Shown: piece after piece, positions 4,115 to 54,577 of the stretch
How the letters are laid out: every line of letters begins with the position of its first letter
Numbering within the stretch: the first letter of the stretch is position 1
Source of the DNA: Carnobacterium funditum DSM 5970
GTDB taxonomy: Bacteria > Bacillota > Bacilli > Lactobacillales > Carnobacteriaceae
Direction of reading: 5' to 3'
NCBI RefSeq assembly: GCF_000744185.1
Contig: NZ_JQLL01000001.1
Location: 62,001-126,000 of the forward strand
Length of the DNA stretch: 64,000 nucleotides
Notes under the pieces: model-generated
Database searches by the model: none
The model's input: only the letters and a program-made list of their open reading frames with translations
What the model was told of the DNA's origin: nothing
Translations under genes and position numbers: made by a program

Positions 4115-5618
4115 TTGAAGATTAATAAAATAATAAATATTTCTATAGTTATCTTGTGCTTATGTCTTGTAGCAAGCATTAGTGTATTTATCTATGGTGG
4201 TAATAATAGTTATAAAATTAGCAATCATTTCAGAAGTCTCCCTCTCCCATTTAATCCAGATGATTCCTATTCAACATATCAAATACAAAATACTGAGATT
4301 ACTGGTTACGGTGGATTTATAAAAGCCATTCAAAGTGATAATTCTGGCAGAAAGACAGTAGTTATCAGAGCACTTTCGCTGCTACCAACAGTCACAGTAA
4401 AAGGTGAAGATAGTGGAAGTGTTTCATTATTGATTGAAAATATAAATCCTGATCTTTATCCAAAGAGTATTAGTGATAATACATTATCTAAGACTAAAGT
4501 AGCGGTAAATGCCTTGAAAATAACTATTGCATTGGACACAAGTGAAATGAAAAAAATGGAACCCTTAAAACCAATGGATACAAAACAGCGGGGATACATC
4601 CAAATACATTATCCTCAGTGATAATCGAGATGGATAGGATACTTTTGAACAGATCATTCAGCAAATAAATGGAGAAAATCCTTTATTTATCATTGATAAC
4701 GGAGATCTTGTATTTAGCGGGAAGCCTAACCAATACCGATTATTTGATCAAATGGCATCAAAAATGTCTTCAACTTTGCTGACCGTTCCATGGAATCGCG
4801 ATAGTTGTGGCAATGGTCGAGAAACCTATACAATGCTGCATGGACCATCCTATTATTCCTTTAATTATGAGAAGAATCATTTTGTGTTTTTAGATTTATC
4901 TCCAGGATGGGCTGGGAAAAAGGCGATTTCTGACGAACAATAGATAGGGTTGAAAAAAGATTTAAAGAATGTGCAAGATAAACGTATTTTTGTTATTACT
5001 CATATACCGCCACGAGACCCAAGAACTAGTGTGACAAACAATGAAATTCCAAACTATATAAACGAAGCGACAAGTGACAGCAATTGGTTGGAACAGAAGT
5101 TAAATAATTATAGTGAAAGCAAAAGTATGGATTACGGATTCCAAAACTCACAAGAAGCGGATAAGTTTGAAAAATTAATGAGTACGTATCATGTTGATAC
5201 GGTATATCTTTCCCATATTCATAGCTACCTTGAATATACAAAGGATGATGTTCGGTATTTAATTACTGGTGGAGCCGGTGTAGAGCTTTTAACAAAAAAC
5301 AGCTATTACCACTATATGATTGCAAAAATGAGTGATGCTAATACGGCAACTATTGTGGAACTTCCATCACCTGCAAGCAATTATCTCGCTAGGTATGGAG
5401 CGACGATACAGCTATTTGCTAATGCAATGTATGAAGAAAATCCAGTCACAGTTATTTTTATAATAGCAGGACTTGTGTTACTTCTAATTTCCGTAATCCT
5501 CAAGATTTATCTAGCGAAAAAGAATCTGTTTGATTTTTTGTGGAAATGGCTTCGGGACATCATTAAGTTTGCTGTGAAACGATTTAAGGAATTGTTTAGT
5601 AAAATAAGTAAAAGCTAA
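4115..5618 (+). pseudogene. Decayed membrane-anchored metallophosphoesterase
   Basis: Remnant of a calcineurin-like phosphoesterase with an N-terminal signal anchor (IINISIVILCLCLVA) and a C-terminal transmembrane helix (VTVIFIIAGLVLLLISVIL). It starts at TTG 4115, 8 bases after AGAGGAG. Four defects are visible. A frameshift lies near 4590-4615, where the frame leaves GYIQIH and resumes as LSDNRDG. A TAG follows at 4635-4637. The metal-binding GNHD motif now reads WNRD (VPWNRD). A second TAG is at 4941-4943. The DNGDLVF metal site and the late THIPPRDP and LSHIHSY motifs survive. An intact unrelated member of the superfamily is at 37058. Confidence 0.88.
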
Positions 5619-6880: not shown

Positions 6881-6963
6881 GATCTTATATGAAATACTAT
6901 CCTTGCCTAATCAGATGAAATTCAGTTTTTTCTTCTATATTTAAAAATTACTTAAATTCCTCC

Positions 6964-7955
6964 TGAAAGAATCCTCAATCAATTAGTCGCTAGCAGTGCT
7001 CTACCTCATAAAAAACTAAAAAAACGCGTTTGAATTCTTGAGTAGCGGTGCTCTACTTAACCATTCGACAAAGAAACTGGAGCGGACTAGGAGCTAGCAG
7101 CGCTCTAGTTCACATTTTCATAGGAATACAAAATAGAATCGTTAGCTAGAACGGTACTAGCTAACACATACTGAAAGAATCCTCAATCAATTAGTCGCTA
7201 GCAGTGCTCTACCTCATAAAAAACTAAAAAAACGCGTTTGAATTCTTGAGTAGCGGTGCTCTACTTAACCATTCGACAAAGAAACTGGAGCGGACTAGGA
7301 GCTAGCAGCGCTCTAGTTCACATTTTCATAGGAATATGAAATAGAATCGTTAGCTAGAAGGTACTAGCTAACACATACTGAAAGAATCCTCAATCAATTA
7401 GTCGCTAGCAGTGCTCTACCTCATAAAAGGCTGGAAAAACGCGTTTGAATTCTTGAGTAGCGGTGCTCTACTTAACCATTCGACAAAGAAACTGGAGCGG
7501 ACTAGGAGCTAGCAGCGCTCTAGTTCACATTTTCATAGGAATACAAAATAGAATCGTTAGCTAGAACGGTACTAGCTAACACATACTGAAAGAATCCTCA
7601 ATCAATTAGTCGCTAGCAGTGCTCTACCTCATAAAAAACTAAAAAAACGCGTTTGAATTCTTGAGTAGCGGTGCTCTACTTAACCATTCGACAAAGAAAC
7701 TGGAGCGGACTAGGAGCTAGCAGCGCTCTAGTTCACATTTTCATAGGAATACAAAATAGAATCGTTAGCTAGAACGGTACTAGCTAAGACATACTGAAAG
7801 AATCCTCAATCAATTAGTCGCTAGCAGTGCTCTACCTCATAAAAAACTAAAAAAACGCGTTTGAATTCTTGAGTAGCGGTGCTCTACTTAACCATTCGAC
7901 AAAGAAACTGGAGCGGACTAGGAGCTAGCAGCGCTCTAGTTCACATTTTCATAAT
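6964..7955 (+). repeat. Higher-order tandem repeat: about 5 x 208 bp, each made of 4 x 52-bp hairpin subunits
   Basis: Near-identical units start at 6964, 7172, 7379, 7587 and 7795 (period 208 bp, one unit 207). The fifth unit lacks its last quarter. Inside unit 1, 13-bp cores TAG-N7-CTA fall at 6991, 7043, 7095 and 7147, exactly 52 bp apart, so the 208-bp unit is itself four diverged 52-bp subunits. The first three cores read TAGCAGTGCTCTA, TAGCGGTGCTCTA and TAGCAGCGCTCTA; the fourth is TAGAACGGTACTA. In subunits 2, 3 and 4 the flanks are complementary and extend the stem, for example GTTAGC and GCTAAC around subunit 4. No open reading frame spans the array. Role unknown. Confidence 0.95.
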
Positions 7956-9253: not shown

Positions 9254-9505
9254 ACATATCAGTCCAGGAAGGTATAAATCAAGGTGGGAATGATAATTAA
9301 TAAAACAATTGAAACCTATCAAGAATACGTGAAAAAATTGGAGATAGAGAGGCGCTATATGATGTGGTTGCCAATGAATATGTCATTCAAGCTGCCATTT
9401 ATCTTGAATGACATAGTGTTATTTCATCCGCTATGGTCATTCCTGAATGGACTGATGGTGATAATTTTAGGGGATTCATTTAATTTGATCTATCCATAAT
9501 AATGG
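9254..9505 (+). other. Probable decayed coding sequence before arsR
   Basis: A 71-codon frame (9284-9499) begins KTIETYQEYVKKLEIE. A one-base shift then gives the more natural reading YDVVANEYVIQAAIYLE before a stop. This looks like another frameshifted remnant. No family was recognised. Confidence 0.4.
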
Positions 9506-53206: not shown

Positions 53207-53956
53207 GTGATTACATTAAAATCAACACGAGAAATAGAGGCAATGGCAGAATCAGGTGCTCTATTAGCTAGCATTCACGAAAAACTACGTGATTTTATTA
53301 AACCAGGTGTAACAGGCACAGAAATTAACCAATTTTTCCATGACCAAATCGAAGCAGCAGGCGGAATCCCAGAACAAATTGGTTTCGAAGGATACGAATT
53401 CGCTACTTGTGTTAGTGTGAATGATGAAATTTGTCATGGTTTCCCAACAGACAAACCTTTAAAAGACAATGATTTGATTAAAGTTGATACGGTCGTTAAT
53501 CTAAAAGGCGCTATGTCTGACTCATGCTGGAGTTATGTCGTAGGTGAATCAACACCAGCAATCGATCACCTAATGAAAGTAACAAAAAATGCTTTATACA
53601 AAGGAATTGAACAAGCACAAGTTGGCAACCGAATTGGCGACATTGGGTATGCTATCCAAACATATGTAGAAGGAGAAGGTCTTTCAGTCGTCCGTGAATT
53701 TATCGGCCACGGTATCGGACCTACCATGCATGAAGCACCAGCTGTACCCCATTACGGCGATGCCGGCAAAGGATTACGCCTTAAAGAAGGAATGGTCATC
53801 ACCATTGAGCCCATGGTCAATACAGGCACATGGAAATCAAAAATGGACGATAATGGCTGGACAGCCCGCACAAAAGACGCCGGCCTAAGCTGCCAATTCG
53901 AACACACACTAGCCATCACAAAAGAAGGCCCAAGAATCCTCACAAAGCAAAAATAA
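53207..53956 (+). CDS. map: Methionine aminopeptidase, type I
   Basis: A 249-aa metalloprotease that removes the initiator Met from nascent proteins. The pita-bread fold is recognisable. Metal ligands sit in DLIKVDTVVNLKGAMSDSCW (Asp-Asp), EFIGHGIGPTMHEAP (His), GMVITIEPMV (Glu) and SCQFEHTLAI (Glu). The start is GTG 53207, 7 bases after AAAGAGGAA. The tandem array begins 3 bp after the stop. A second copy elsewhere in the genome is possible, since it lies outside the usual ribosomal operon. Confidence 0.95.
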   Translation: MITLKSTREIEAMAESGALLASIHEKLRDFIKPGVTGTEINQFFHDQIEAAGGIPEQIGFEGYEFATCVSVNDEICHGFPTDKPLKDNDLIKVDTVVNLKGAMSDSCWSYVVGESTPAIDHLMKVTKNALYKGIEQAQVGNRIGDIGYAIQTYVEGEGLSVVREFIGHGIGPTMHEAPAVPHYGDAGKGLRLKEGMVITIEPMVNTGTWKSKMDDNGWTARTKDAGLSCQFEHTLAITKEGPRILTKQK

Positions 53957-53958
53957 AA

Positions 53959-54480
53959 GATGCTGAGAACTCTGTTCAGGCATGAAAGAAAAATAGGAAA
54001 TGGCAAAGAGGATGCCTTTTATCCTCACAGCCATTTATCTTTTTTCCGAATGCCTAGAGTTCAAAGCTCAATTAGATAAGATGCTGAGAACTCTGTTCAG
54101 GCATGAAAGAAAAATAGGAAATGGCAAAGAGGATGCCTTTTATCCTCACAGCCATTTATCTTTTTTCCGAATGCCTAGAGTTCAAAGCTCAATTAGATAA
54201 GATGCTGAGAACTCTGATCAGGCATGAAAGAAAAATAGGAAATGGCAAAGAGGATGCCTTTTATCCTCACAGCCATTTATCTTTTTTCCGAATACCTAGA
54301 GTTCAAAGCTCAATTAGATAAGATGCTGAGAACTCTGATCAGGCATGAAAGAAAAATAGGAAATGGCAAAGAGGATGCCTTTTATCCTCACAGCCATTTA
54401 TCTTTTTTCCGAATACCTAGAGTTCAAAGCTCAATTAAGACAAGATGCTGAGAACTCTGCCTAATTATGAAAGAAAACAG
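53959..54480 (+). repeat. Tandem array of a 121-bp palindromic unit, four copies plus a fragment
   Basis: Units start at 53959, 54080, 54201 and 54322 (period 121), then a truncated fifth from 54444. Each unit can fold on itself in three nested stems: GAACTCT with AGAGTTC, then AATAGGAAATGGC with GCCATTTATC, then GAGGAT with ATCCTC at the tip. AGGCAT also pairs with ATGCCT in the first two units; in units 3 and 4 ATGCCT has become ATACCT. The three 66-69-codon frames here are byproducts of the repetition. The array follows map directly and ends before a terminator. Role unknown. Confidence 0.93.
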
Positions 54481-54534
54481 AAACTGATTAAAATCTTCGC
54501 AGTTTCAAAATAGTTAGACTAATGACTATAGCTG

Positions 54535-54577
54535 AAAGTTCAAAAGACATTTTAATAGAATGTCTTTTGAACTTTTT
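54535..54577 (+). terminator. Terminator after the 121-bp array
   Basis: A 17-bp stem (AAAGTTCAAAAGACATT with its complement, 54535-54551 with 54559-54575), then a T run. It may end a map-array transcript. Confidence 0.88.

Follow-up and report, generated by a model that had tools for sequence, protein, structure and literature searches.

A hairpin array abutting map in Carnobacterium funditum is one site of a dispersed repeat family set against gene borders

The array of hairpin units that follows map in Carnobacterium funditum DSM 5970 is one of 12 places where this genome carries members of a dispersed repeat family. For this family the analysis showed a common structure, docking at stop codons, arrays of mixed unit types, short linkers specific to each place and presence or absence between species. 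On balance, and with some reservation, we favour the reading that these are non-autonomous repeats that would be added at gene borders, then amplified, and that would affect the upstream gene. Coordinates below are those of the window, the 64,000-nt stretch of DNA that was analysed (contig NZ_JQLL01000001.1, positions 62,001 to 126,000), unless another sequence is named.

Using Tandem Repeats Finder, we located the array 3' of map at 53957-54459, with a period of 121, 4.1 copies and 98% matches. The map stop codon occupies 53954-53956 and unit 1 begins at the next base, leaving a gap of 0 nt; an earlier note made from the sequence had set the start 3 bp after the stop, and had rightly placed the end before a terminator. 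Four complete units of 118 nt, separated by 3-nt linkers, make up the array; a decayed fifth unit comes next, and then a terminator-like hairpin. The four near-identical units described in the note are therefore present, and the decayed unit is additional to them. The features are as follows (R1 is the repeat model described below).

53207..53956, + strand: map (methionyl aminopeptidase), the upstream gene, whose stop abuts the array; 249-aa ORF, Pfam Peptidase_M24, 159 bits
53957..54074, + strand: hairpin unit 1, type I, 0 nt after the map stop; R1 140.3 bits, Tandem Repeats Finder
54075..54077, + strand: linker GAT, identical at all three junctions of the map array
54078..54195, + strand: hairpin unit 2, 100% identical to unit 1; R1 140.3 bits, blastn identity, fold
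54199..54316, + strand: hairpin unit 3; R1 135.7 bits
54320..54437, + strand: hairpin unit 4; R1 135.7 bits
54442..54546, + strand: decayed fifth unit, first 18 nt kept (by eye), remainder diverged; R1 21.9 bits, E 0.05
54534..54576, + strand: terminator-like hairpin with a T-run, 3' of the array; terminator scan, inverted repeat I1

The map product is 89% identical to a Pisciglobus halotolerans protein. The unit at 54078-54198 folds as a single interrupted hairpin (-44.6 kcal/mol, z -5.15, 0 of 200 shuffles as stable), and its opposite strand folds about equally well (-42.6 kcal/mol, z -5.31, 0 of 200 shuffles). The tandem, self-complementary nature that the note had attributed to these units was thus confirmed. 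The terminator scan detected no terminator-like site within the map array and a single one 3' of it, and the idea that the units are intrinsic terminators was rejected, as the hairpins of the array lack a T-run. The units are 98% alike within the array, compared to 85-91% identity with same-type units at other places in this genome, in agreement with the recent local expansion proposed in the note.

A blastn search with one unit against the whole genome (2.35 Mb, two contigs) returned 33 matches, every one of them in contig 1 on its + strand. We aligned 21 distinct units of this genome (alignment A1) and built the model R1 from A1 and its fold. R1 gave 38 matches in 12 places, all on the + strand at E up to 0.1, two of them weak (37.5 and 21.9 bits), so that the dispersed copies for which the note had recommended a search do exist. 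The A1 consensus fold contains 33 pairs, 19 of which show changes on both sides; 95.5% of the cells concerned are paired (79.9% in shuffles), and covariation scores 0.461 where shuffles score 0.184, with 0 of 500 as high. The number of further pair types was not raised in A1 (35, and 35.7 in shuffles). The signal was lost when the partner was slid by 1-3 columns, a control biased in favour by the derivation of the structure from A1 itself. This covariation could stem from palindrome correction instead of selection. In Carnobacteriaceae the unit ends are fixed (ARGATGY...ARCTCAAYTA) and the conserved core is about GAnnGAAAAATAGGAA...TTATCTTTTTCCGA. Units are non-coding, quasi-palindromic and about 115-122 nt long; outside the ends and core, the stem varies freely in sequence and is maintained chiefly as a palindrome.

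We then compared the units with known kinds of element. With Rfam, the whole window returned only a tRNA at curated thresholds, and the map array with 12 related loci returned no match over threshold at relaxed E-values. In Streptococcus pneumoniae, BOX elements are intergenic, form hairpins and have a variable number of modules on a boxA-boxB-boxC plan, and RUP elements, intergenic and hairpin-forming too, are thought to use an IS630-type transposase; the likeness of both to the units, as intergenic hairpins, was assessed by description only. Integron attC sites are imperfect palindromes kept as structure, with extrahelical bases and the core sites RYYYAAC and GTTRRRY at their ends, lying 3' of genes in same-strand arrays. 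The units share the structure-kept imperfect palindrome, the position 3' of genes and the same-strand arrays, but their ends lack RYYYAAC and GTTRRRY (consensus, by eye), they come without gene cassettes and many of their hosts are housekeeping genes. VNTR loci with repeats of about 121 bp occur in Enterococcus faecium and were considered as possible relatives of the units. For comparison, the accessible part of PMC6419805 gives neither repeat length nor sequence.

REP and BIME sequences, associated with RAYT (Y1) transposases, are extragenic palindromes often found near stop codons, in tandem or in clusters, and the units, too, are extragenic palindromes in many copies. According to the part of PMC3733652 that was available, a REP is a palindrome of 20-40 nt that carries GTAG or CGTC as a tag on one of its ends. 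The units differ in their length of about 118 nt and in occurring as mixed types with place-specific linkers. Membership of the REP/RAYT group was rejected: the Y1 transposase (Y1_Tnp, PF01797), the enzyme sought for unit movement, had 0 matches in this genome and was absent from six of the eight other unit-bearing genomes and present in two (missing in 7 of 9 overall), and by eye the GTAG/CGTC tag was not seen at the unit ends, which are ARGATGY and CTCAAYTA. Searches by blastn of plasmids and phages (with the window array and one Enterococcus moraviensis array) and of Escherichia coli (with one stretch from the pcrA site) gave no match. The family was not found described in a literature search whose coverage was thin for subscription journals and which is not proof of absence; nor is it described in the available parts of PMC2864571 and PMC2828477. 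As judged from sequence, the best reading is that the units are interspersed hairpin repeats, REP/BOX-like in kind and apparently undescribed as a family.

R1 matches were present in 16 of the 18 Carnobacteriaceae genomes searched, this one included, and absent from G005 and G010 (among the others, identical match coordinates identify G007 as Desemzia incerta, G008 as P. halotolerans and G009 as Isobaculum melis). At the level of the order, 41 of 118 genomes matched at E 0.001 or better, 13 of these 41 being Carnobacteriaceae, and scores fell outside that family. In a set of named genomes, 10 of 15 matched at 1e-4, E. moraviensis with 69 matches. Ends and core are common to 65 distinct Carnobacteriaceae units, 51 of Enterococcus type and eight that are Streptococcus-like (an inferred label for genus g8). 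In an alignment fitted to R1, the common arms are 5' GA..GAAAAATAGGAA and 3' TTATCTTTTT..CGA, less strictly kept in Carnobacteriaceae. Matches near 45-60 bits in other genera are probably, not certainly, relatives of the family. In Enterococcus pseudoavium, a weak family match (L098 454-651; 35.6 bits at 533-651) lies 2 nt after a tRNA-Arg gene.

The position of the units relative to genes was examined in 46 Carnobacteriaceae arrays, drawn from the best matches per genome and not from all matches; mirror-strand matches, the duplicates L036, L039, L154, L156 and L162, and the 22-bit window match were left out. In 32 of the 46, the distance from the end of a same-strand stop codon to the first unit is -2 to +6 nt; in the C. 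funditum genome alone, this holds for 9 of 12 arrays. By comparison, with ORFs of 80 codons or more counted as genes, the same distance from a stop applies to 469 of 30,396 intergenic strand-positions of the window (1.5%). The binomial p is 2e-47 under an assumption of independence that orthologous sites do not satisfy. Abutment of the stop codon is thus the rule for the Carnobacteriaceae arrays examined, and the note's argument that dispersed copies would make the position at map incidental does not hold. In eight further arrays, among them those of PcrA in four genomes, the upstream frame extends 11-41 nt into the unit; four start 24-234 nt from the stop and two have no same-strand upstream frame. 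The poor fits L040, L041, L148, L149 and L163 come from G009 and G014, and at L041 and L149 the other end of the array lies -3 and 14 nt from the end of a convergent gene. As a separate observation, the first hairpin unit encodes the C-terminal residues of PcrA (PIEK-QDAE...) at L033 (4038-4060), L139, L144 and L151; PcrA of unit-free relatives has different final residues.

In E. moraviensis, we analysed 20 places of the 69 matches, taken best-scoring first, with two of 41 matches omitted (29.2 and 26.5 bits). A start codon with a ribosome-binding site lies opposite the R1 strand 13-23 nt from the array at 11 of the 20 places and 32-94 nt away at five; no such start was found at the other four, one of which (L274) has a start codon on the R1 strand instead. 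R1 position 1 is the end that faces the gene border in both groups, the stop in Carnobacteriaceae and the start in E. moraviensis. Arrays of G039, before fabD and in a similar spacer, have the E. moraviensis-like orientation. Judged by their 3' ends, the genes that host arrays in several genera are pcrA, upp, a fliY-like gene, camS and an FtsX-type permease gene, and many host genes are housekeeping genes. Since orthologous genes carry arrays across genera, inheritance explains many of the positions.

The composition of the arrays was analysed in arrays of at least two units with gaps under 40 nt in genera g1, g3 and g4, using the ends of the first three units per array and leaving aside the arrays of G008 and G014 and the third unit of L139. 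Among the 64 junctions of 27 multi-unit arrays, 38 join different core types (14 types at 72% core identity), and with few exceptions the borders read CTCAAYTA, 0-6 nt, ARGATGY. When linkers of the same array with differing flanking types were paired, 37 of 60 pairs were identical, compared to 3.0 expected (0 of 20,000 shuffles). Linkers are also similar to the sequence that separates the gene from its first unit (summed match 44, and 19.5 in shuffles; 4 of 20,000 as high). A full match of the linker to this gene-side flank was observed in 8 of 26 arrays and was not observed in 18; in the map array the linker GAT and the flank do not match, and the arrays L043, L136, L138, L144 and L145 contain mixed linkers. 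The short linker therefore tends to be a property of the place and not of the unit type. Because one linker recurs at junctions of unlike types, block duplication alone is not sufficient, and the variation in linker length from 0 to 6 nt argues against an ordinary transposase with a fixed target duplication. These joins suggest that single units were added one at a time.

Gain and loss were followed at two sites. At map, the four units and relic of C. funditum correspond to three units in G004, one in G001 and a 39-nt remnant in G002, and R1 detected no unit in the remaining 14 of the 18 family genomes. The variable copy number that the note had predicted between strains was therefore observed between species of the family, which is what the comparison covered. 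The three units of G004 are of three types that are 43-57% alike, whereas each is 87-92% similar to units from other loci or other species. The pcrA|ligA site, identified by Pfam in the C. funditum genome, has units by R1 in 9 of the 18 genomes (G000, G001, G002, G004, G006, G011, G015, G016 and G017) and a remnant, by eye, in G013. No units occupy the spacer of 15-165 nt that precedes the ligA match in G003, G005, G007, G008, G009, G010, G012 and G014.

If pairing were kept in the RNA of one strand, isolated stem mismatches would differ between G-T and A-C. In the units, we counted 16 G-T and 19 A-C. Excluded from this count were all units from G009 and G014, the locus L164, unit 3 of L139, a small number of weak or partial matches, and any unit longer than 140 nt or containing N. 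The commonest isolated mismatch was G-A (24 of 67 and 29 of 68), which was not used in this test. As a control, 277 terminator-like hairpins taken together gave a G-T to A-C ratio of 55:46, without separation. Split by an upstream A-run, with slightly changed stem thresholds, 47 unidirectional hairpins gave 11:4 and 187 bidirectional ones 36:33 (p 0.12). The equal counts in the units suggest, with weak support from this control, that the pairing reflects maintenance in DNA or correction of the palindrome and not selection on the RNA of one strand. As to expression, E. coli REPs that lie no more than 15 nt from a stop are reported to stall ribosomes and to lower translation (PMC12306157, available part); only about 11% (446/4,072) of predicted E. 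coli REPs are that close. The first stem in a transcript of the units would begin within a few nt of the stop, and by analogy an effect on the upstream gene is plausible.

Taken together, the reading that we favour would make the map array one site of a dispersed hairpin-repeat family of Lactobacillales. A putative activity would recognise the folded or paired form of these non-autonomous units and add single units at the docking point, setting one defined unit end against the gene border, which would be the stop codon in Carnobacteriaceae and the region before the start codon in Enterococcus. A few bases of local flank would be copied at each addition, giving each place its own linker; repeated additions would yield mixed arrays, and slippage or unequal exchange would then multiply near-identical units in a row, as in the four that follow map. 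Once transcribed, the units would place a stable hairpin near the terminating ribosome or the transcript's 3' end, where, as for some E. coli REPs, it would probably lower or buffer the output of the upstream gene or protect the mRNA.

The sense-strand position after stop codons, the covariation with a conserved internal core and the sharing of host genes between genera would also be expected of a functional 3'-UTR RNA, acting in cis, selected at certain gene ends and spread by descent or gene conversion without being mobile. We regard this as unlikely: the units of E. moraviensis and G039 lie on the other strand, facing the start of the next gene, both strands of a unit fold about equally well, unit types are mixed, and units are missing from related genomes. 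The mismatch counts also resemble those of bidirectional and not unidirectional terminator-like hairpins, a weak contrast. An RNA belonging specifically to map, regulatory or processed, as envisaged in the note, is very improbable. Units do follow map in three related genomes, with a remnant in a fourth, but they also stand behind eleven other same-strand frames of the C. funditum genome (one a weak match 24 nt away), and the family genomes in which R1 finds none after map are the large majority (14/18).

Slippage of a selfish palindrome could operate with no enzyme at all, the hairpins causing slippage or template switching, correcting the palindrome and creating an apparent covariation. The near-identity within runs, the truncated last units and the equal G-T and A-C mismatches fit this account, which we nevertheless hold doubtful as a sole explanation, because unlike types joined at near-constant borders with a place-specific linker, and stop-codon docking at many places, would be left unexplained. 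There is also a small chance that the units are gene-free DNA cassettes, a counterpart of integron arrays in which a recombinase or target-primed copying of Lactobacillales would read the fold instead of the sequence and stack units singly at gene borders with fixed polarity. Finally, it is quite unlikely that the family has been described under another name such as Efa-1 of E. faecalis, an intergenic multi-copy hairpin family of the same order. By the accessible part of PMC2267715, Efa-1 is 163 nt long, forms two adjacent hairpins and has 65 copies; an E. faecalis strain has one weak R1 match (45.3 bits) with a second similar copy adjacent by eye, and it is against this single match that the 65 copies stand, in a comparison made by description only.

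If the addition of units at gene borders is correct, many members of a bacterial order would carry an unnamed repeat whose structure is conserved more than its sequence and which would rewrite the ends of ordinary genes, even the last residues of PcrA in several species. The differences in unit number and type between close relatives would provide a natural experiment on a hairpin at a stop codon, and would point to a putative activity that adds structured DNA at gene borders.

Several minor observations were made in the C. funditum genome. In the arrays at 9372, 39695 and 2309521 of contig 1 (L031, L032 and L035), the last unit is cut near the hairpin tip with the gene-facing half kept; at 4153, 56652 and 116442, it diverges after 11-18 nt. 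At L031 (9372-10924), where the array follows the FtsX-type permease gene, two overlapping ORFs lie beyond the cut last unit; integrase-core and HTH_21 domains, as in IS3-type transposases, are present in the second ORF. With dnaA at 1576172 (- strand) and contig 1 assumed circular, the arrays (1665839, 2042710, 2309037-2310487 and 3175-116546, + strand) are confined to one side of dnaA and are oriented away from it, except for a weak place at 1083213. The R1 matches listed, in part, for G002, G004, G011, G015, G016 and G017 fit the same geometry; a short G002 blastn match lies on the other side, and exceptions occur in G003 and G014. This one-sidedness may require no more than the inheritance of old sites. 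The window also contains a second tandem array, at 6963-7953, which R1 did not match; its 208-bp unit is repeated 4.8 times at 98% likeness and carries short palindromes (GTTAGCTAGAAC...GTACTAGCTAAC).
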